Origin: Arenibacter latericius DSM 15913
GTDB lineage: Bacteria > Bacteroidota > Bacteroidia > Flavobacteriales > Flavobacteriaceae
Reading direction: 5' to 3'
NCBI RefSeq assembly: GCF_000424985.1
Contig: NZ_AUKX01000009.1
Location: 1-64,000, forward strand
DNA: 64,000 nt
The position numbers and the translations under genes are program-made. Below the pieces are notes generated by a model, which did not search any database, was not told the origin of the DNA, and saw nothing but the letters and a program-made list of their open reading frames with translations. This document shows, piece by piece, positions 8,929 to 64,000 of this stretch. Each line of letters begins with the position of its first letter. Within the stretch, counting starts at the first letter, position 1.

Positions 8929-8959
8929 GGCCCTGTAAGTTCTTAGCATTCTTCATCAA

Positions 8960-9125
8960 CCGGAAAAGGTTTTACTTCATTGTAGTAATTAGGGAATCGT
9001 GTGAGATTCACGAACTGTCGCGCAACTGTAAGTAACACATACAAAGCTTTCATTAAAGAGAATCCACTGCGTTTGCGGGAAGGATAATGAAAGTAGTTAT
9101 AAGTCAGGAGACCTGCCTATTCCGA
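8960..9125 (+). promoter_or_regulatory. Cobalamin (B12) riboswitch
   Basis: The conserved core is clear: GGTTTT near 8968, GGGAATCGTG, CTGTCGCGCAACTGTAAG, then CCACT, GGGAAGG, and the B12-box string AGTCAGGAGACCTGCC at 9102-9117. It lies in the leader of nrdB-nrdA on the same strand, with no other gene between. By known biology such riboswitches shut off expression when adenosylcobalamin is plentiful, here lowering the B12-independent reductase. Boundaries are approximate. Confidence 0.95.
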
Positions 9126-9165
9126 ATTGACAATACTTTCGCGATTGAAGTTTAAGTCGAATGAG

Positions 9166-17597: not shown

Positions 17598-18626
17598 TTA
17601 AGTTAATTGAGGTTCTAGAACAGCAGACTTTACTGTCTGGATAATTCTTCCCGCAATTTTATATGGATCTCCATTGGAAGCGGGTCTGCGATCTTCCAAA
17701 TACCCTTTCCATCCATTGTTCACTGTATAGAGAGGAATTCGTAAAGAGGCACCTCTGTCAGATATGCCATAAGAGAAATCGTGAATGGAAGCAGTTTCGT
17801 GTTTACCAGTTAATCGCTGGTCGTTAAATGCGCCATAAACGGCAATATGTTCTTTTACTACGGGTCTAAAAGCTTCACATATTTTTTCGTACACCTCTTT
17901 TGATCCACAGGTTCTTAAGGTGGTGTTGGAGAAATTGGCATGCATACCAGAACCGTTCCAATCAGTATCACCTAGAGGCTTAGGATGGTATTCAATATAG
18001 TAATCGTACTTTTCTGTTAAGCGATCCAATAAATAGCGAGCTATCCAAATCTCGTCTCCAGCTTTCTTGGCGCCTTTAGCAAATAATTGGAACTCCCATT
18101 GTCCACATGCTACTTCTTGATTGATGCCTTCAAAATTTAGACCTGCTTTTATGCAGGCGTCAGCATGTTCTTCTACAAGTTTTCTGCCATGTGTGTTTAA
18201 TCCACCTACAGAACAGTAATACATGCCTTGTGGTTTTGGATATCCCCCTCTTGGAAAACCTAAAGGAAGTTCTGTCTTTACATCCATAATAAAGTACTCT
18301 TGTTCAAACCCAAACCAAAAATCGTCATTGTCATCGTCAATTTTAGATCTCGCATTGGATACATGTGGTGTGCCATCGGGATTCATAACTTCTGTCATTA
18401 CCAACCAGCCGTCGGTACGTTCTGGATCGGGGTAGATGGCTACCGGTTGTAATACGCAATCAGATAAATTTCCATCCGCTTGCCTGGTAGAACTGCCGTC
18501 GAATGACCAAACAGGGCAGTCTTCTAACGTGCCGTTAAAATTTTCTACCACCTTCGTTTTGCTTCTCATGTTTTGGGTGGGTTCGTACCCATCCAGCCAA
18601 ATGTATTCTAATTTAGACTTGCCCAT
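17598..18626 (-). CDS. glnA: Glutamine synthetase type II (beta-Grasp, eukaryote-like)
   Basis: A 342-residue ATP-dependent enzyme joining ammonium to glutamate. The length and motifs are of the short type II form: WSFDGSSTRQ, the FGFEQEYFIM metal and ATP motif, QWEFQLF, GSGMHANFS and the RRPASNGDPY end. It has no adenylylation loop as in type I, so control is likely transcriptional. It is divergent from glnN across 193 bases that carry promoters in both directions and two palindromes. Confidence 0.95.
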   Translation of the reverse strand: MGKSKLEYIWLDGYEPTQNMRSKTKVVENFNGTLEDCPVWSFDGSSTRQADGNLSDCVLQPVAIYPDPERTDGWLVMTEVMNPDGTPHVSNARSKIDDDNDDFWFGFEQEYFIMDVKTELPLGFPRGGYPKPQGMYYCSVGGLNTHGRKLVEEHADACIKAGLNFEGINQEVACGQWEFQLFAKGAKKAGDEIWIARYLLDRLTEKYDYYIEYHPKPLGDTDWNGSGMHANFSNTTLRTCGSKEVYEKICEAFRPVVKEHIAVYGAFNDQRLTGKHETASIHDFSYGISDRGASLRIPLYTVNNGWKGYLEDRRPASNGDPYKIAGRIIQTVKSAVLEPQLT

Positions 18627-18655: not shown

Positions 18656-18663
18656 CAAATTTA
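18656..18663 (-). promoter_or_regulatory. glnA: glnA -7 promoter box
   Basis: On the minus strand the box reads TAAATTTG, matching TAnnTTTG. The predicted start of transcription is near 18649. The proximal palindrome is then centred about -41 and the distal one about -92. Confidence 0.6.
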
Positions 18664-18678
18664 CGGTTTTTATAAAAG

Positions 18679-18700
18679 CACCCTTAATTTTTAGGGGGTT
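18679..18700. promoter_or_regulatory. Nitrogen-type palindrome N1 (degenerate), proximal to glnA
   Basis: ACCC at 18680-18683 and GGGGGT at 18694-18699 have the same outer spacing (18 bases from first C to last G) as the perfect site N2, with a weaker left arm. The centre is 18689.5, about 41 bases upstream of the predicted glnA start, a position typical of activators that touch RNA polymerase. Confidence 0.5.
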
Positions 18701-18726
18701 AATTTTAAAAAACAACTTATTTTTAT

Positions 18727-18754
18727 TTACACCCCTATAAAATTAGGGGTGTAA
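18727..18754. promoter_or_regulatory. Nitrogen-type palindrome N2 (perfect)
   Basis: TTACACCCCTA, six bases, TAGGGGTGTAA: a perfect 11-bp inverted repeat. It is not followed by a T run and lies between divergent promoters, so it reads as an operator rather than a terminator. The same motif recurs twice upstream of glnB-amtB. Confidence 0.65.
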
Positions 18755-18796: not shown

Positions 18797-18804
18797 TATT
18801 TTTG
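18797..18804 (+). promoter_or_regulatory. glnN: glnN -7 promoter box
   Basis: TATTTTTG matches TAnnTTTG. The predicted start near 18811 leaves a leader of about nine bases before the ATG at 18820. Palindrome N2 is centred about 70 bases upstream. Confidence 0.6.
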
Positions 18805-18819
18805 TAAAAAATATTATAC

Positions 18820-21006
18820 ATGTCAAAACAAAGGTTTAGTGCCATTTCCCGTAGTAATAAGCGGAATAAGATAGAGATTAAGGAGAAGGGAAGACGTTCT
18901 GAGTATTTTGGAATGAACGTTTTTAATGAGGAGAAGATGAGACAGTTCTTAACTCAAGAAGCTTTTGACCGAATTAAAGCAGCGGTAATATCAGGCACTA
19001 AGATAGATCGTAAAATTGCCGATCAGGTTGCTGAGGGCATGAAAGCCTGGGCAATTTCCATGGGAGCTACGCATTATACACACTGGTTCCAACCCTTAAC
19101 CAATGCTACGGCAGAAAAACATGATGCCTTTTTTGATCTAACATTAGATGGAAAAGCTATGGAGAAATTTGGCGGTGGACAATTGGTTCAGCAAGAGTCC
19201 GATGCATCTAGTTTTCCCAATGGTGGTATCAGGAATACTTTTGAGGCTAGGGGATATACGGCATGGGATCCTACTTCACCTGCATTCCTTTATGGTGCTA
19301 CATTATGTATACCAACCGTTTTTGTGTCATATACCGGAGAGGCCTTAGATAATAAGGCGCCGTTATTAAGGGCATTGAACGCTATGGATGAGGCGGCAAC
19401 AGCAGTAGCTAAATATTTTGATAAAAATGTAACTAAGGTAAATGCCACCTTAGGATGGGAACAAGAATACTTCTTGGTGGACAAAGCCTTGGCGTATTCT
19501 CGGCCAGATATTAGTCTTTCTGGAAGAACAATAATGGGGCAGTCCGCGGCCAAGGGACAGCAGTTAGACGACCATTATTTTGGGGTGATTCCTCTAAGGG
19601 TACTCAATTTTATGAAAGAGTTGGAGAAGGAGTGTACCAAATTAGGAATACCAGTAAAAGCCCGTCATAATGAGGTTGCGCCAAATCAGTTTGAACTTGC
19701 CCCTATTTTTGAAGAGACCAATTTAGCGGTAGATCACAACCTTCTTTTAATGGATATCATGGAAAAGGTATCCGATAAGCATAACTTTAAAGTGCTTTTT
19801 CATGAAAAACCATTTGCAGGAATAAACGGTTCTGGGAAACACAATAACTGGTCCTTGGCTACCAATACTGGAGTGAATCTCTTAAGCCCTGGGTCTACTC
19901 CAATGAAGAATTTACAATTTTTAACCTTTTTTGTGAATACTATTAAAGCGGTAGATACCTATGAAGAATTGTTGAGATCTTCTATTGCTTCCGCAAGTAA
20001 CGACCATAGATTAGGGTCTAGCGAGGCGCCCCCTGCTATTCTTTCAATTTTTATTGGAGATCAATTGAATGAGGTGCTCAATGAATTGGAAGGGGTTACA
20101 AATGGAAAGTTATCGCCAGAGGAGAAAACAGACCTTAAACTTAATGTAGTAGGTAAGATTCCAGAAATATTACTAGATAATACAGATCGGAACCGTACCT
20201 CTCCTTTTGCCTTTACTGGTAATAAGTTTGAGATGAGAGGAGTTGGCTCCAAAGCGAATTGTGCTAAACCTATGATGGTCTTAAATACCATAGTGGCTAA
20301 GCAATTGCAAATCTTTAAAAAAGAGGTAGACGGCCTAATAGCTAAAAAAGGTCTTAAAAAAGATGAGGCTATTTTTAATATATTACGAGAATATATAAAA
20401 ACTTCTAAGCGAATTAGGTTTGAGGGTGACGGATATAGCGAAGCTTGGGAGAAGGAAGCTGAATCTAGAGGCTTAAGCAATAATAAGACTACACCAAGTG
20501 CTCTTCAGGTGCTTACCTCAAAAGAAAGTATTTCGCTCTTTAAATCTATGAACGTCCTTAGTGAGGTTGAGGTAAAGATGCGTAAAGAGGTGGAGTTGGA
20601 AGAGTATATTATGCATATCCAAATAGAAGGTAGGGTCTTTAATGAGTTGATATACAGTTATATCATTCCAGCTGCAATAAAATATCAAAACAACTTGATA
20701 CAAAACATAAATGGTCTAAAATCCATCTATGGGGATAGCTATAAGAAAATGGCGGAGAGTCAATTAGATATTGTTTCCCGTATATCCGATCATCTAAAGG
20801 TCATTAAAGTAAAGACAGATGCTATGGTAGAGGAGCGTAAGAAAGCTAATAAGATGGTAGATGTAAATAAAAAAGCCTATGCTTATTGTGATAAGGTAAG
20901 GGTTCATTTTGATGAAATCCGTTATCACTGTGATAAATTAGAGCGATTGGTTGGAGATGAATATTGGCCATTGGCTAAATATAGAGAGCTTCTTTTTATT
21001 AAATAA
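18820..21006 (+). CDS. glnN: Glutamine synthetase type III
   Basis: A 728-residue large glutamine synthetase of the GSIII class common in Bacteroidota and cyanobacteria. Landmarks include THWFQPLTNATAEKHDAFF near residues 87-105, GWEQEYFLVD, KARHNEVAPNQFE, GSGKHNNWS and NRTSPFAFTGNKFEMR. The C-terminal helical extension is intact. It duplicates the reaction of the divergent glnA, so the two probably serve different nitrogen conditions. A hairpin terminator follows. Confidence 0.96.
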   Translation: MSKQRFSAISRSNKRNKIEIKEKGRRSEYFGMNVFNEEKMRQFLTQEAFDRIKAAVISGTKIDRKIADQVAEGMKAWAISMGATHYTHWFQPLTNATAEKHDAFFDLTLDGKAMEKFGGGQLVQQESDASSFPNGGIRNTFEARGYTAWDPTSPAFLYGATLCIPTVFVSYTGEALDNKAPLLRALNAMDEAATAVAKYFDKNVTKVNATLGWEQEYFLVDKALAYSRPDISLSGRTIMGQSAAKGQQLDDHYFGVIPLRVLNFMKELEKECTKLGIPVKARHNEVAPNQFELAPIFEETNLAVDHNLLLMDIMEKVSDKHNFKVLFHEKPFAGINGSGKHNNWSLATNTGVNLLSPGSTPMKNLQFLTFFVNTIKAVDTYEELLRSSIASASNDHRLGSSEAPPAILSIFIGDQLNEVLNELEGVTNGKLSPEEKTDLKLNVVGKIPEILLDNTDRNRTSPFAFTGNKFEMRGVGSKANCAKPMMVLNTIVAKQLQIFKKEVDGLIAKKGLKKDEAIFNILREYIKTSKRIRFEGDGYSEAWEKEAESRGLSNNKTTPSALQVLTSKESISLFKSMNVLSEVEVKMRKEVELEEYIMHIQIEGRVFNELIYSYIIPAAIKYQNNLIQNINGLKSIYGDSYKKMAESQLDIVSRISDHLKVIKVKTDAMVEERKKANKMVDVNKKAYAYCDKVRVHFDEIRYHCDKLERLVGDEYWPLAKYRELLFIK

Positions 21007-41852: not shown

Positions 41853-42098
41853 AAATGTAGTTTTTAAGTAGTAAAATTAGGATTTTGAAAAGGAAAAGAC
41901 TTGCATTATTGAGTTTTTTATAATATTCGAAAATGGACCCCTTAGTTTTTGCGATTTCATTAAATTGCAAAAGATTAGACGCTGTCATATTGCGAATTAA
42001 TTAATAGTGAGGCTAACCCTATTTGGTTACTTCGTAAGATGGTTGTCTTAGTCGACATAATTAGAAGTACTTATAGTTTAGTATATAAAAAGTTGAAA

Positions 42099-45000
42099 AT
42101 GAAAAGAGAAGCTACCTATAAACCGGTAAATAAAGTTCGTATTGTTACTGCTGCCTCCCTGTTTGATGGGCATGATGCTGCAATAAATATGATGCGTAGA
42201 ATAATTCAATCCACGGGGGTAGAGGTTATTCATTTAGGGCATGATAGGAGTGTTTCTGAAGTTGTGGACTGCGCTATTCAAGAAGATGTAAACGCTATTG
42301 CAATTACTTCCTACCAAGGTGGACATAATGAGTATTTTAAGTTTATGCGCGATTTATTGGTGGAGCGTGGCGCAGGCCATATTAAAATTTTTGGTGGAGG
42401 AGGAGGTGTTATTCTGCCTGAAGAGATAAAGGATTTAATGGCGTATGGGATTACGAGAATCTATGCTCCTGACGATGGCAGAAATATGGGGCTTCAGGGG
42501 ATGATAAATGATTTAGTGGAACAAAGTGATTTTCCTACTCCAGATTTAAAGACCCAGGACCCAGGTGAATTAAAACAGCTTATTAAAGAGAAAGATGTTT
42601 CAACTATAGCAAGGCTAATTAGTCTAGCAGAAAATAGAAATGCCGAATTTAAAAAGCATGCGGCTATTTTGAACGGGAGTAATAAACAGATTCCTGTTTT
42701 GGGGGTTACCGGAACAGGTGGCGCTGGGAAATCTAGCTTGGTAGATGAATTGGTAAGACGATTTTTAATGGATTTCTCAGAAGGGACAATTGGGATAATA
42801 TCAGTGGATCCATCAAAACGGAAGACGGGAGGTGCGCTATTAGGAGATCGAATCCGGATGAATGCTATTAATGATCCTAGGGTGTATATGCGTTCTTTGG
42901 CTACAAGAGAATCTAACTTATCCCTATCTAAGCACATAGATGAAGCTGTAAGGGTGCTAAAGGGTGCGGGATTCGACCTTATTATTTTAGAAACATCGGG
43001 TATTGGGCAGTCCGATACAGCAATTACATCGTACAGTGATGTTTCCCTTTATGTAATGACTCCTGAATTTGGAGCGGCAACTCAACTGGAGAAAATAGAT
43101 ATGTTAGATTTTGCCGATTTGGTGGCTATAAATAAGTTCGATAAGAGAGGAGCTTTGGATGCTATAAGAGATGTGAGGAAACAATTTGTTCGCAACCATG
43201 GTCTATGGGAGGCGAAACACGAGGATCTCCCAGTTTTTGGTACTATCGCTTCGCAATTTAATGACCCTGGAATGAATAGGTTGTATCAATCCATAATGAC
43301 TATCCTTAAGGGAAGGACTGAAACACCTTTAAAATCTTCTTTCGTATTAACAGAAGGGGATGAGGAGAAACGTTTTGTAATCCCGCCGGCTAGGACTAGG
43401 TATTTGTCGGAAATAGCAGAAAGCAATAGACAGTATGATAACAGTGCCAAGGAACAATCTAAATTAGCGCAACAATTATATGGTATTTTCACTACTATAA
43501 TCGCTGTTTTAGATTCGGATGCGCCTGAAGATATAAAAGAGATTCTTTCTGGTTCGGGAATAGCGTTGGAAAAAGTGCTTCAATTGACCAAAGATGAGAA
43601 TGAAAAGCAATTGATTAGTTTGTTATGTGCCCAATTTGAATCCCTGAAAATGAATTTTGATTCGCATAATTGGAAAATGATTCTGGATTGGGAATATACG
43701 GTATCACAGTATAAGAATCCGGAATACAGTTTTAAGGTGAGAGGAAAAGAGATTAAAATGGCCACGCATACCACCTCGCTTTCGCGATCCCAAATACCAA
43801 AAATTGCACTTCCTAAATATAAAGCCTGGGGAGATCTTTTACTATGGATGCTACAGGAAAATGTACCTGGGCAATTTCCCTATACAGCCGGATTGTATCC
43901 TTTTAAACGCGCTGGGGAAGATCCTACAAGAATGTTTGCTGGGGAAGGCAGTCCCGAGCGTACCAATAGGCGTTTCCATTATGTTAGCTTTGGCTTGCCT
44001 GCAAAAAGATTGTCTACCGCTTTCGATTCTGTTACCCTCTACGGTAGTGATCCCGATAGTAGACCAGATATCTATGGTAAAATTGGGAATGCTGGTGTTT
44101 CTGTATGCTGTTTAGATGATGCGAAAAAGCTGTATTCGGGATTCGACTTAAGTGATGCTATGACTTCAGTAAGCATGACGATTAATGGTCCGGCTCCCAT
44201 GTTATTGGGGTATTTTTTAAATGCGGCTATTGACCAAAACTGTGAGAAATATATTAAAGAAAATGGACTGCAGGATGAGGTTGAAAAGAAAATAGAAGTT
44301 TTATATAGCGGAAAGGAAAAATTGAGGCCTAAATATCATGGAGCTTTACCTGAGGGAAATAATGGTCTAGGATTAATGTTGTTGGGGGTTACAGGGGATC
44401 AGGTGCTACCTGAAAATGTGTACAATGAAATAAAAAATAAGACCATACAGCAAGTGAGGGGAACGGTGCAAGCCGATATTTTAAAAGAAGATCAGGCGCA
44501 GAATACCTGTATCTTTTCTACGGAGTTTGCACTGAGATTAATGGGGGATGTTCAAGAATATTTTATAAAAAATAAAGTACGTAATTTTTATTCGGTTTCC
44601 ATATCTGGATATCATATTGCTGAAGCAGGTGCTAATCCTATCACCCAGCTAGCATTTACCCTAGCTAACGGGTTTACCTATGTGGAATATTATTTAAGTA
44701 GGAGAATGGATATTAATAAGTTTGGTCCTAATCTTTCCTTTTTCTTTTCTAATGGTATAGATCCTGAATATGCCGTTATCGGGAGGGTGGCTAGGAAGAT
44801 TTGGTCTAAGGCCCTGAAGATAAAATATGGAGCAGACCCTAGGGCACAGATGTTAAAATATCATATCCAGACTTCTGGTAGGAGCCTGCATGCCCAAGAA
44901 ATAGATTTTAATGATATAAGGACCACCTTACAAGCCTTGTACGCGATTTACGATAATTGTAATTCTCTACATACTAACGCCTATGATGAAGCAATAACAA

Positions 45001-45557
45001 CACCTACAGAGGAATCTGTTAGAAGAGCTATGGCAATACAGTTGATCATTAATAAAGAATTGGGCCTTGCTAAAAATGAAAATCCTCTGCAAGGGTCTTT
45101 CATTATAGAGGAGTTAACAGACTTAGTGGAGGCGGCAGTGTTGATGGAGTTTGACCGAATTACTGAGCGTGGTGGCGTTCTCGGTGCAATGGAAACAATG
45201 TACCAGCGTTCTAAAATTCAGGAAGAGAGCTTGTATTATGAAACTTTAAAGCATAATGGCGAATATCCTATCATAGGAGTAAATACCTATCTAAGTTCTA
45301 AAGGTTCTCCAACGGTGCTTCCTGCAGAAGTGATTAGGGCTACGGAAAAGGAGAAACAAAATCAAATCCAAACGCTAAATAATTTGCACGAAGTGAATCA
45401 GGAGTTTGTTCAAACTAAATTAGAATCCTTGCAGCAAGTGGCTGTAAAAAACGAAAATATTTTTGAAAGCTTAATGGAGGTTACTAAATATTGCTCTTTG
45501 GGACAAATAACTCAAGCCTTGTTTGAGGTAGGTGGGCAATACAGACGTAATATGTAG
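42099..45557 (+). CDS. icmF: Fused B12-dependent isobutyryl-CoA-type mutase (IcmF)
   Basis: A 1152-residue three-part protein. The cobalamin-binding domain (about residues 10-140) has [14 protein letters not shown] and [14 protein letters not shown]-protein chaperone domain has P-loop [14 protein letters not shown] near residue 205 and NKFDKRG. The acyl-CoA mutase barrel has [21 protein letters not shown], and the terminal part includes [13 protein letters not shown] and [15 protein letters not shown]. This order is IcmF, interconverting isobutyryl- and n-butyryl-CoA or related branched acyl-CoAs with adenosylcobalamin. The start at 42099 drops 20 unlikely residues. Active-site side chains deciding the exact substrate were not assigned. 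The gene shows the organism uses or imports B12. Confidence 0.94.
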
Positions 45558-46498: not shown

Positions 46499-46951
46499 TT
46501 GAAAGCAAAAATAGATGCCCTTAATTGGAAAATTTTGAAATCACTTCAAGAAAATGCGCGTGAATCTTTCGCTAATATTGGTAGGAAAGTGGGCTTAACT
46601 GCTCCAGCGGTAGGGGAACGTGTAAAGAAGATGGAAGACCTTGGAGTTATCTCTGGATATAAAGCGGTAGTGTCTCATTCCCATACGGGATACCAACTAA
46701 AAGCGATTATCACCTTGCGTGCCTTTATGGGTAAATTAAAGCCATTTCTAGAAGCAGTCAATTCGTTTGAAGAGGTGGTGAACTGTTACCGAATTACTGG
46801 AAATGAAAATATTATAATGATGGTGGTGCTAAAAGATCAATTTCATTTAGAGAAATTTATTGATAAGCTTATTCAGTACGGGGAGACAAGAACCCATATT
46901 GTGTTGTCTGATGTGGTTTCTAATGCCCCCATTAGAAGAAGTGATAGTTAG
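46499..46951 (+). CDS. Lrp/AsnC-family transcriptional regulator
   Basis: A 150-residue regulator. The N-terminal winged HTH (LNWKILKSLQENARESFANIGRKVGLTAPAVGERVKKMEDLGVI) is followed by a RAM effector-binding domain (KAIITLRAFM, YRITGNENIIMMVVLKD). It starts at a TTG placed exactly where the HTH begins. It probably senses an amino acid. Targets are unknown, and the divergent helical-protein gene is a candidate. Confidence 0.9.
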   Translation: MKAKIDALNWKILKSLQENARESFANIGRKVGLTAPAVGERVKKMEDLGVISGYKAVVSHSHTGYQLKAIITLRAFMGKLKPFLEAVNSFEEVVNCYRITGNENIIMMVVLKDQFHLEKFIDKLIQYGETRTHIVLSDVVSNAPIRRSDS

Positions 46952-49548: not shown

Positions 49549-50616
49549 CTAAAAAGCATAAACGGCAGCAAGAACAAAGGAGGATAAGCTATTTTGGGGT
49601 TGTAATTCCTTATTTAAGAAATTAAAAGACTTATCAGAGGCGCTATCTAGCCTCAATTCTGGTTTAATTGTTAAGTCTCCTATTTTTATATTTCCCGTTA
49701 GTGTTACTGCAAAAACATCAGTGTCTTCTGTGCTGCTGCCTATGGCTCCATAGTTGCCTATTTCCGAGAAGTATTCCGCTCTTATTCCAAAAGAAATAGT
49801 GTCTGAAGTGGTGTATTGTGGGTAGATTGCCACTCCGGCAAAGCCTATTTCGTCATTATCATATAGAGCAGCGTTTATACCTAGATATATTTGGTTAGAT
49901 AAATTAAAGCCCCCAGTAAAATCTATTTCATAGGCTCCGTCATCGGTTAATAGATTTAAATATTGCCCATTATAACCTAGTTGAGCGCCAAAGGCATATT
50001 TACCAGTGGGATTTAATTCTGTTTGATCGGTGGGATTCATTGCGGCCAACATAAGACTAAATTTGTCCGATAAGTCAAAATCAATCTTAAATCCAGTATG
50101 AGAAAATGGGCCATATGAAAATAAGTAAGAAGTACTGTAATTAAAATTTTCGGTTGGTGAAATTACCTCATAACCTAAGAAAGTATTGAAATTCCCAAAG
50201 GTCAATTTTATAGACTTATGTACTTTCCAATACACATATAGTTGGTTCACTATATTGCCTGTTTCAGAATAAATGGGAGAAGAAAAAATGGCGTCGGTGC
50301 CACGGGGTCCAAATACCAGATCGCCTACAAAGCCTGTTTTTTCTCCCTCATAACTTATTATAGCATTGGCCATCCCTAAAGCAAAACCAGGTAAATTGGC
50401 AAAAGAGCTGCCTGGGGCTGAATTAGGGAGTCCGGAAGCGTCATTAAAATTATTATCGCCATTGAGGTTAACTCGGTAGTAAGCGTCTATACTCCCGGTT
50501 AGGGATATTTTATTGGATTCCGGATTTTTTTCTTGTGAAAATATTGCTGTATATAGCAGGGTAAATAATAAAGCTAGTAAATATTTTACGTAATTTGTGT
50601 CTACAATCATTTTCAT
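49549..50616 (-). CDS. Outer-membrane beta-barrel porin of the ammonium operon
   Basis: A 355-residue protein with signal MKMIVDTNYVKYLLALLFTLLYTAIFSQ and an alternating beta-barrel pattern ending SFVLAAVYAF (C-terminal Phe). The opening ISLTGSIDAYYRVNLN and the NTFLGYEVISPTENFNYSTSYLFSYGP stretch match the BBP2-like porins of Bacteroidota. It is third in the glnB-amtB-porin order, which suggests a channel for ammonium or small nitrogen compounds. It is separated from amtB by 109 bases with a hairpin. Confidence 0.8.
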   Translation of the reverse strand: MKMIVDTNYVKYLLALLFTLLYTAIFSQEKNPESNKISLTGSIDAYYRVNLNGDNNFNDASGLPNSAPGSSFANLPGFALGMANAIISYEGEKTGFVGDLVFGPRGTDAIFSSPIYSETGNIVNQLYVYWKVHKSIKLTFGNFNTFLGYEVISPTENFNYSTSYLFSYGPFSHTGFKIDFDLSDKFSLMLAAMNPTDQTELNPTGKYAFGAQLGYNGQYLNLLTDDGAYEIDFTGGFNLSNQIYLGINAALYDNDEIGFAGVAIYPQYTTSDTISFGIRAEYFSEIGNYGAIGSSTEDTDVFAVTLTGNIKIGDLTIKPELRLDSASDKSFNFLNKELQPQNSLSSFVLAAVYAF

Positions 50617-50725: not shown

Positions 50726-51976
50726 TTAATGTTGATTCATTCTGAAATCTGCATAAGCGTCCATTCCATGTTCGTGTATGTCTAAACCTTCCTCTTCTTC
50801 TTTAGTAGAAACTCTTATGCCAGAAGTTTTTTTAATGGTGGTAAGGATTATATAAGCCATAAGAGAACAGAAAAGGCCAATTATAGCAACACCTGAAAGT
50901 TGATATAGGAACTGTGTAATTCCGGCCTTGGCTCCAAAAATACCTACGGCAAGGGTTCCCCAAATCCCGCATATTAGATGGACTGCTACAGCTCCTACGG
51001 GATCGTCTAGTCTTAGACGGTCTATTAGAGCAACGCCCAATATAATTACAAATCCTGCTATTATTCCAATAAGAATTGCTTCTGAAGGAGACATTAAATC
51101 TGCTCCTGCGGTAATGCCTACTAATCCGCCTAAAATTCCATTTAGCATCATAGTCAGATCAAAATTCTTGTACCGTAGATAGTAAAATATAAACGACCCT
51201 ATTCCGCCTGCGGCACCGGCAAGACATGTTGTGACTAGTACAATGGAGGTAGTGGCAGGATCTGCTGATAAAACGGAACCTCCATTAAATCCAAACCAGC
51301 CTAACCATAAAATGAGTACGCCAGCAGTAGCTAAGGGGATATTGTGGCCAGGAATAGCATTAGGTGTTCCATCTTCTTTGAACTTACCTATTCTAGGACC
51401 TAATATGTAAATAGCCATCAAAGCAGCCCATCCTCCCACAGAATGCACCAAAGTAGATCCTGCAAAGTCATGAAAACCAGCATTTTCACCACCAAGGGTA
51501 GATAGGAATCCACCTCCCCACTGCCACGATCCAACAATTGGGTAAATAAAAGCAATATATATTACGGTGAATAGCATAAATTGCCCTAGCTTGATCCTTT
51601 CGGCAACGGCTCCAGAAACAATGGTAGCAGCTGTGGCAGCAAACATTCCTTGAAAGAGGAAGTCTGTCCAATAAGTATATCCCTCGTTGTAACTTAAATC
51701 TAAGCTTCCATTTGCTAATAAGGGAGCATCTAGTCCAAAACCTGCAAAGCCAAGAAACCCATTAAAACTGCCTGGGTACATTAGGTTGAATCCTATAAAG
51801 TAAAAAAGTATTAGTCCAGTACATATTATAAATATGTTTTTAAATAGAATATTGATAGTATTTTTTTGTCTTGTTAAACCAATTTCTAATAATGAAAATC
51901 CTAAATGCATAAAAAATACAAGTGCTGTGCAGATCATCATCCATACATTGTTTGCTGTAAATAATCCTGTGTCCAT
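50726..51976 (-). CDS. amtB: Ammonium transporter
   Basis: A 416-residue inner-membrane Amt protein of eleven membrane helices. The twin-His pore is in DFAGSTLVHSVGGWAAL and PVGAVAVHLICGIWGTLA. Other landmarks are FGFNGGSVLSAD, GIIAGFVIILGVALIDRLRLDDP and the aromatic Phe in LFQGMFAATAATIVSGAVAER. It moves NH4+/NH3 inward and is gated by P-II, whose gene lies immediately upstream (32-base gap). Confidence 0.97.
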   Translation of the reverse strand: MDTGLFTANNVWMMICTALVFFMHLGFSLLEIGLTRQKNTINILFKNIFIICTGLILFYFIGFNLMYPGSFNGFLGFAGFGLDAPLLANGSLDLSYNEGYTYWTDFLFQGMFAATAATIVSGAVAERIKLGQFMLFTVIYIAFIYPIVGSWQWGGGFLSTLGGENAGFHDFAGSTLVHSVGGWAALMAIYILGPRIGKFKEDGTPNAIPGHNIPLATAGVLILWLGWFGFNGGSVLSADPATTSIVLVTTCLAGAAGGIGSFIFYYLRYKNFDLTMMLNGILGGLVGITAGADLMSPSEAILIGIIAGFVIILGVALIDRLRLDDPVGAVAVHLICGIWGTLAVGIFGAKAGITQFLYQLSGVAIIGLFCSLMAYIILTTIKKTSGIRVSTKEEEEGLDIHEHGMDAYADFRMNQH

Positions 51977-52008: not shown

Positions 52009-52347
52009 TTAGTTGATTCCCGCAGATCCGCGCTCCTTTGTTCTAATTCGATAAGCTTCCTGAATCTCTGAAACGAATACCTTCCCATCTCCCACGTTTC
52101 CTGAATAGGCGGTTTCTAAGATTGTATTGACGGTCCTTTCCATAAATTCGTCCGACACTACAATGGATAGATATCTGCGCTGAATGTCTGAGGTGCTATA
52201 AGAAATTCCCCTATAGACATGACCTTGTTTTTCGTTTCCAACTCCTGTAACATCCCAGTAGCTAAAAAAATTGACTTCAATTTGATGCAATGCTTTTTTG
52301 ACATCATCAAATTTTGATTTCCGAATAATTGCTTCGATTTTCTTCAT
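52009..52347 (-). CDS. glnB: P-II nitrogen regulatory protein
   Basis: A 112-residue P-II signal protein that binds ATP/ADP and 2-oxoglutarate and blocks AmtB. The start MKKIEAIIRKSKFDDVKKAL and the end GDGKVFVSEIQEAYRIRTKERG are typical. The T-loop is shortened or divergent (GHVYRGISYSTSDIQRRY). Tyr50 aligns with the uridylylated Tyr51 of enterobacteria, but the surroundings differ, so modification is uncertain. It is first gene of the operon with amtB and the porin, under the palindrome pair. It could equally be called glnK. Confidence 0.93.
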   Translation of the reverse strand: MKKIEAIIRKSKFDDVKKALHQIEVNFFSYWDVTGVGNEKQGHVYRGISYSTSDIQRRYLSIVVSDEFMERTVNTILETAYSGNVGDGKVFVSEIQEAYRIRTKERGSAGIN

Positions 52348-52370: not shown

Positions 52371-52378
52371 TAAAAGTA
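52371..52378 (-). promoter_or_regulatory. Probable -7 box of glnB-amtB
   Basis: The minus strand reads TACTTTTA, one base from TAnnTTTG. The predicted transcription start is near 52364, placing the proximal palindrome about -40 and the distal one about -93, as at glnA. Confidence 0.45.
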
Positions 52379-52391
52379 TATTAAAACTAAA

Positions 52392-52416
52392 TAACCCCAT
52401 TAAAAAATGGGGTGTA
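52392..52416. promoter_or_regulatory. Nitrogen-type palindrome N3, proximal to glnB
   Basis: ACCCCAT (52394-52400), six bases, ATGGGGT (52407-52413), then GTAA. It has the same arm type, spacer and outer C-to-G distance as N2. Centre 52403.5. Confidence 0.6.
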
Positions 52417-52444
52417 ACTGATTATTTATATGACATTAGGAATA

Positions 52445-52467
52445 TGACCCCTATTAAATTAGGGTGT
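52445..52467. promoter_or_regulatory. Nitrogen-type palindrome N4, distal to glnB
   Basis: ACCCCTA (52447-52453), six bases, TAGGGTGT (52460-52467). There is one mismatch in the right arm relative to N2. Centre 52456.5, 53 bases from N3, compared with 51 between N1 and N2. Confidence 0.6.
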
Positions 52468-52870
52468 GTGTATAAAAATAAACTTAATTTTGCCATGTGG
52501 CTTTAAAGTTGGGGGTGTATTGATAGCGTTTTTTGCAAGAATATTGATGAAGTGTGTCTTTTGCAATATAAAACACTGTGTAGGTGATGTTTTAATGGGA
52601 TAATCTCCTGAAAGCGGCAGGTTAATAGGAATTGTGCAATGTGCTTGGCTATGTTTTGTTTATCTAATAGAGGAGTAGTTGCTTATAGCTAGTTCTTCGA
52701 TGTTTATAAGGGGCACAATTATCTTTTGTTATTATCAACCTTGTGTTAGAATGGCTTAAACCAAATTTTGTGGTAAGGACTTAACGGGATAGGATGTGGT
52801 GAAGAGAAAAGGGGCTTCTCGCTTTCTTATGTTGTAAGGAGGTGAAGATTATTTTTTAAGTTAAGATAAT
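52468..52870. other. About 400-bp gap without recognised features
   Basis: Between the glnB promoter region and the crcB stop. No ORF, hairpin terminator or repeat stands out. Confidence 0.5.
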
Positions 52871-63262: not shown

Positions 63263-63271
63263 ATTAAAGTA

Positions 63272-64000
63272 ATGGCGAGAATTTTGGTTATTGAAGATGA
63301 ACCTTCAATTAGAAGAGTATTAGTAAAAATTCTATCTGAGGAAAATAGCAGCTATATTGTAGAGGAAGCTGAGGACGGACAAAAAGGGCTAGACGCTATA
63401 AAAAAGGACGATTTTGATCTAGTGCTCTGCGATATAAAAATGCCTAAGGTAGATGGAGTTGAGGTTTTGGAAACAGTTAGGAAAACAAAGCCCGAAATTC
63501 CGTTTATTATGATTTCTGGTCATGGTGATTTAGATACTGCTGTAAACACCATGCGATTAGGAGCATTTGATTATATCTCTAAACCGCCAGATTTAAATCG
63601 ACTTTTAACAACCGTACGTAATGCACTAGACCGAAAGGAGCTTGTTGTAGAAAATAAAATCCTGAAGAAGAAAGTTAGTAAAAATTACGAAATGATTGGG
63701 GAGAGTAAAGAGATCCAAATGGTGAAGGATATCATAGAAAAGGTTGCCCCTACAGATGCCAGAGTCCTTATCACTGGTTCTAACGGAACAGGAAAGGAAT
63801 TGGTTGCGCATTGGATTCATGAAAAAAGTGAGCGAAGTAGTTTTCCTATGATAGAGGTGAATTGTGCCGCTATTCCATCTGAACTTATTGAAAGTGAATT
63901 GTTTGGTCATGTTAAAGGAGCTTTCACCTCTGCGGTGAAAGATAGAGCTGGTAAGTTTGAAGCCGCCCAAAAAGGAACTATCTTTTTAGATGAAATAGGA
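63272..64000 (+). CDS. Sigma-54-dependent response regulator (NtrC family), cut by window end
   Basis: 243 codons are visible. A receiver domain (1-125) has the acidic pocket ED at 8-9, phospho-acceptor Asp in VLCDIKMPKVDG and Lys in YISKPPD. The AAA+ domain begins near 143 with EMIGESKEIQMVKD, Walker A GSNGTGKELVAHWIH and the sigma-54 contact loop, here GAFTSA instead of GAFTGA. The downstream part with its DNA-binding domain lies outside the window. It starts nine bases after the barrel gene. Its histidine kinase is not seen. Confidence 0.93.
   Translation, partial: MARILVIEDEPSIRRVLVKILSEENSSYIVEEAEDGQKGLDAIKKDDFDLVLCDIKMPKVDGVEVLETVRKTKPEIPFIMISGHGDLDTAVNTMRLGAFDYISKPPDLNRLLTTVRNALDRKELVVENKILKKKVSKNYEMIGESKEIQMVKDIIEKVAPTDARVLITGSNGTGKELVAHWIHEKSERSSFPMIEVNCAAIPSELIESELFGHVKGAFTSAVKDRAGKFEAAQKGTIFLDEIG

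Follow-up and report, generated by a model that had tools for sequence, protein, structure and literature searches.

A conserved pair of palindromic sites before ammonium assimilation genes of Flavobacteriaceae: a predicted operator of nitrogen control

Two glutamine synthetase genes of Arenibacter latericius DSM 15913 are divergently transcribed, and a pair of palindromes lies in the gap between them. Do these palindromes belong to a common control of ammonium assimilation, and if so, what kind of regulator would use them? The window, that is the whole 64-kb stretch of DNA that was analysed, places glnA at 17598-18626 on the minus strand and glnN at 18820-21006 on the plus strand. The former encodes a product of 342 aa, which matches general glutamine synthetase domains only in Pfam and which we take to be a type II enzyme; the latter is a type III glutamine synthetase, with a Pfam match to the enzyme. 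The promoter-distal site of glnA is a perfect palindrome, TTACACCCCTA-N6-TAGGGGTGTAA, at 18727-18754 (the full 28 bases being TTACACCCCTATAAAATTAGGGGTGTAA), and its promoter-proximal site is a weaker copy with the core ACCCTTAATTTTTAGGGGGT at 18680-18699 (18676-18703 in the 28-base frame). As symmetrical sites, these and the two described below are given without strand. The centres are 51 bp apart. A preliminary description of this DNA had pointed to a perfect 11-bp palindrome in the gap and to a weaker copy 51 bases away, and both are found at these places. How unusual is such a palindrome? No other perfect inverted repeat in the gap has 11-base arms around a spacer of 0-12, and of 2000 versions of the gap shuffled by single bases, 7 contain such a repeat. 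Perfect inverted repeats of the same definition occur at 8 places across the window, and thus palindromy alone is not rare; it is the shared sequence, the spacing and the conservation that carry the weight of the case. The window further contains a cobalamin riboswitch at 8950-9134 and a methylmalonyl-CoA mutase gene at 42039-45557.

The same pair is present 34 kb away from the glnA-glnN gap with similar geometry, as had also been claimed, before an operon whose genes all lie on the minus strand and were assigned by Pfam match: glnB for the PII protein (52009-52347), amtB for the ammonium transporter (50726-51976) and, co-directional after amtB, a gene for a BBP2 porin (49549-50616). The promoter-proximal site of glnB, ACCCCATTAAAAAATGGGGT, has its core at 52394-52413 (frame 52390-52417) and the promoter-distal site, ACCCCTATTAAATTAGGGTG, at 52447-52466 (frame 52443-52470), both located by matrix and by pattern, and their centres are 53 bp apart. 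The motif common to these sites has the form ACCCC-N10-GGGGT and measures 18 bases from the first C to the last G; the preliminary description had this span right and the spacer, given as N8, wrong. Some 50 bp beyond the distal glnB dyad, on its upstream side, a half-site, GGGGGTGTA, is seen at 52511-52519, and at about the same place in relatives (loci L092 and L127) the genomes G139 and G105 have full further dyads; the promoter may have a third site in phase with the other two. The BBP2 porin gene recurs in glnB/amtB operons of relatives, and a porin beside amtB perhaps gives nitrogen compounds a way through the outer membrane.

Simply counting pattern matches in the window gives weak evidence: there are 5 against 1.84 expected, and 6 of 100 shuffles reach 5. 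Therefore a 28-base symmetrical matrix was trained on glnB promoters of other genera only, with pairs from 26 of 29 loci. When the window is scanned with this matrix, the four sites come out as the top four distinct places (scores 29.0, 24.4, 23.8 and 17.2), and the best pairs are those of the two promoters, in the glnA-glnN gap and at glnB-amtB. The promoters of glnN, which were not training data, were then searched for pairs with a score of at least 20 and an allowed spacing of 50-55, with ten rounds of dinucleotide shuffles for comparison. Of 111 members of the family besides our own genome, 79 have a pair before glnN; the shuffles yield 0.1 on average and never more than 1. (Of the 116 genomes with a glnN match, our own, then G075, G079 and G080 with weak matches only, and G059, whose gene start was not placed, are not counted among the 111.) The other 32 have no pair that reaches the threshold, which counts against the reading we prefer. 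When the spacing is left free, an anchor site is found in 90 of the 111 and a usable second site in 58 of these, and 53 of the 58 second sites are at 51-54 bp. The regions before 30 Lrp genes and 30 Rrf2 genes contain no pair and no site scoring at least 16. In the genus, all 18 genomes have a strong site at the glnA-glnN place and 17 have the pair, own genome included, with G015 falling short. The preliminary description had expected the palindromes to be conserved in orthologous promoters, and in genus and family they are.

How specific is the motif to these genes? A strict pair pattern matches 27 of 119 genomes and the reversed pattern matches six. Strict matches with an AT-rich centre are found in 21 genomes at 22 places, 21 of them at these nitrogen operons and one at alanine dehydrogenase, and the matches in the remaining six genomes, which have GC-rich centres, look like chance. 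With up to one mismatch allowed, the motif occurs at six places in the own genome, namely three sites of the present finding, two places inside open frames and an intergenic one with no gene start nearby. Counting single motifs across the genus gives 87 against 47 for the reversed-pattern control, only about twice as many, and this also counts against our reading. Among the other single sites of the genus for which stretches were taken, 12 of 13 are inside open frames; the intergenic one, in G006, adjoins a gene resembling, by eye, adenine phosphoribosyltransferase.

Is there any fixed relation between the sites and the promoters? According to those parts of PMC9723704 that deal with start-site mapping in Flavobacterium psychrophilum, the box TAnnTTTG occupies -12 to -5. 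Among 25 glnB promoters (the 29 loci minus L100, L104, L105 and L106), the centre of the nearer palindrome is 24.5-26.5 nt before the first base of TAnnTTTG in all 19 with an exact box. In another set, of 39 glnB loci, the box was searched within 15-60 nt on either side; 32 loci have the pair, and 15 of 18 exact boxes are at 25.5-27.5 nt. These promoters thus combine a conserved dyad with a sigma-A-type -7 box at fixed spacing. Given this distance and the box at -12 to -5, the nearer site is centred at about -38.5, and consequently its downstream GGGG arm lies at about -33 to -30. For glnA, the proximal site is centred 26.5 nt from the -7 box TAAATTTG (18656-18663, minus strand), and with the box set at -12 to -5 the two sites are centred at about -38.5 and -89.5, so that the centres of -41 and -92 proposed earlier were close and are here revised. 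Two boxes of the window itself count against our reading. The -7 box of glnB, TACTTTTA (52371-52378, minus strand), is 25.5 nt from the proximal centre and is imperfect, and the candidate -7 box of glnN, TATTTTTG (18797-18804, plus strand), is 56.5 nt from the strong palindrome, off the usual distance. In 50 glnN promoters a box follows the last site at 10-60 nt, and these boxes cluster at 25-26, 35-37 and 46 nt (13, 17 and 3 promoters), which hints at helical phasing. A further element, the A-rich TAAAAAT, lies between the dyads in 20 of the 26 glnB promoters with a pair (L078-L103), with a mean of 2.6 and a maximum of 7 in shuffles; it is 22.5-23.5 nt before the proximal centre in 18 of the 20. 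The exact TAAAAAT is absent from the window's own glnB promoter. The element may mark a bend or a place where RNA polymerase makes contact.

Which genes are covered, and how far does the system reach? At the loci inspected where glnB is inside a longer operon, the pair precedes the first gene, the porin, and in G035, G062, G128 and G047 it lies between gltB and a divergent porin operon. From 82 genomes with a gltB match, 47 gltB loci were examined; 25 have a site scoring at least 16 and 16 have the pair, and at ten loci the site is 292-302 bp before gltB. The link to glutamate synthase suggested in the preliminary description therefore exists in relatives, but the own gltB has no site, another point against our reading. 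G040 has a pair before its alanine dehydrogenase gene, without an exact -7 box. The regulon looks small. For other families of the order, where gene starts were estimated, the pair is near the type III gene glnN in 4 of 7 loci and a strong site in 5 of 7; three loci from further families, found via the type II enzyme, have neither. A scan of 84,980 species, in which the gap to the box was set too long so that it yields no taxon count, returned the pair with a box at two loci only, both of them glnB promoters, in Cellulophaga and Eudoraea records, whose GlnB proteins share 88% and 85% identity with the one encoded in the window. No pair is present on L342, taken as the putative glnB locus of G010.

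What do the two palindromes do? Most likely they are operators for a dimeric protein that coordinates ammonium assimilation by class II-type activation of sigma-A promoters, a prediction we hold with good though not full confidence. Each palindrome would bind one dimer of a DNA-binding protein, and the two dimers would sit about five helical turns apart on the same face of the helix. The nearer dimer, at about -38.5, would replace the -33 element of the sigma-A promoter and contact RNA polymerase, and the upstream dimer would reinforce this activation. In this genome the protein would control the two glutamine synthetases and the PII-AmtB-porin operon, and in many relatives glutamate synthase as well. 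Induction is to be expected when nitrogen is short, since these genes are usually needed when ammonium is short. The idea of a nitrogen regulon sharing one operator, put forward in the preliminary description, is supported by these results; as for the dedicated activator proposed with it, the geometry favours one, and activation itself is what we infer. A wider scenario, to which we lean neither way, is that the Flavobacteriales, and perhaps more of the phylum, have a nitrogen master regulator of their own from a family not known for nitrogen control, which would act through two in-phase ACCCC-N10-GGGGT dyads at a fixed distance to a sigma-A promoter whose -33 element has been lost, and would govern glutamine synthetases, glutamate synthase, PII, AmtB and an outer-membrane porin.

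As to how the sites act, the chief alternative is repression. The same operator could serve a repressor that shuts the promoter off under nitrogen excess, with two sites for cooperative binding or looping, and a protein centred at about -38.5 would obstruct RNA polymerase too. However, the distance to the -7 box is constant within about 1-2 bp across genera and a half-site stands in for the -33 element, and such an arrangement is more typical of an activator; we regard repression as rather unlikely. Might there be no binding protein at all, the palindromes being RNA hairpins or chance repeats? Perfect inverted repeats do occur at 8 places in the window, but shuffles yield only about 0.1 pair in 111 promoters. 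Moreover, the palindromes lie at a fixed distance upstream of the -7 box, which fits a DNA operator; wherever a box was found they lie before it and would be outside the transcript, as the earlier description had supposed. An RNA element is ruled out by this position together with the lack of any Rfam family match at the palindromes, and the explanation as a whole is hardly credible.

If a protein binds, is it a familiar one? NtrC with sigma-54, a protein of the NtcA/Crp type or Bacillus GlnR/TnrA would fit the gene set, which is that of a classical nitrogen regulon, and sites near -40 and -90 resemble class III Crp promoters. Against this, none of the consensus patterns of NtrC, NtcA, Crp, Fnr, Bacillus GlnR/TnrA (TGTNA-N6/7-TNACA), AmtR (the partial box ATCTATAG), IscR and Lrp occurs in either gap, which bears out the initial impression that the motif is unlike NtrC, NtcA, GlnR, TnrA and Crp sites. 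A loose sigma-54 (-24/-12) pattern is likewise absent from both gaps, where a sigma-A-type box of the TAnnTTTG type stands at a fixed distance instead. The sigma-54 promoters listed for Flavobacterium psychrophilum in PMC9723704, a selection, belong to chaperone, envelope and gliding genes. Candidate binders were filtered through small genomes that have pairs. The Crp-type proteins of these genomes are of differing kinds: with PF13545 as the only profile and a short frame in G067, G064 and G067 have a single kind and G140 and G105 a different one, no single orthologue being common to these four pair-bearing genomes. Crp as the binder is disfavoured. All 11 genomes tested, three of which have no glnB site, encode a Fis-domain sigma-54 activator that by eye lacks a receiver, and in G064, G067, G140, G105, G035 and G128 no receiver-AAA-Fis protein is found, the sole PF02954 protein starting, by eye, without a receiver. 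A known nitrogen regulator is accordingly improbable. Less doubtful, and one candidate for the regulator, is an Lrp/AsnC protein other than the window's own, although this too we judge to be more unlikely than likely by a good deal. At least one Lrp-type match is present in all 119 genomes, both those with and those without sites; in G040 an Lrp-type gene lies about 1.6 kb beyond the pair-bearing alanine dehydrogenase gene, and Lrp-type proteins are able to bind phased sites. But no autoregulatory site is seen at the G040 gene, and the half-sites are wider apart than in the Lrp consensus.

Two more specific candidates were rejected. The window's own Lrp/AsnC gene (46499-46951) is a neighbour of glnB or glnN in several genera, and among the neighbours of glnB, glnN and gltB, which form 123 clusters, it is by eye the only regulator in the 45 most frequent. 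It is excluded because five genomes with pairs (G064, G140, G105, G040 and G048) have only distant paralogues as best matches by E-value. The Rrf2 family came into consideration through the half-site geometry, which presumably resembles that of IscR type 2 sites. It has no match in 10 of 119 genomes, eight of which have pairs (G035, G067, G094, G099, G104, G105, G127 and G140), and is therefore excluded as well. The small genome G064 has an Rrf2 gene (C2:57391-58200) directly before a second, divergent PII gene. A response regulator with receiver and AAA domains lies at the end of the window (63263-64000) and continues into L209; it is not among the three PF02954 places of the genome.

Why should this operator matter? 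Named nitrogen master regulators exist for proteobacteria, cyanobacteria, firmicutes and actinobacteria. Bacteroidota are abundant in sea, soil and gut, and we found no named nitrogen regulator for the phylum, nor any description of the motif, in the open-licence literature. With a sharply defined operator and a fixed promoter geometry, the question of the regulator becomes testable, and the operator could be used as protein bait, in reporter design and as a sequence readout of nitrogen regulons. In this arrangement, moreover, the ammonium transporter shares its operon with an outer-membrane porin. For the same phylum, the passages on Prevotella ruminicola 23 in PMC5552732 report that amtB, glnK, glnN and gltBD respond jointly to ammonium; the response is strong, but its sign is inconsistent between passages, which counts against our reading. 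The terms 'promoter' and 'transcription factor' are absent from the main text of that paper.

How does the predicted system compare with known ones? It is like the class III Crp-type promoters and NtcA in having two dimer sites on the same face near -40 and -90 and in serving nitrogen genes. The half-sites, ACCCC-N10-GGGGT, are different, the NtcA and Crp patterns are absent, and the small pair-bearing genomes share no common Crp-type protein; the centres at about -38.5 and about -90 resemble the Crp class II/III geometry with its -41.5 without coinciding with it. IscR type 2 sites of the Rrf2 family are alike in how far the conserved half-sites lie from the dyad axis, and unlike in that the protein family is missing from eight pair-bearing genomes. 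With NtrC and sigma-54 the system has in common the targets, namely the glutamine synthetase, PII and AmtB genes, whereas here the promoters are of the TAnnTTTG type with an operator at a fixed distance, and the sigma-54 and NtrC patterns are absent. An operator-defined nitrogen regulon is of a familiar kind; the present member appears undescribed, and the protein bound to it may come from a family not yet linked to nitrogen.
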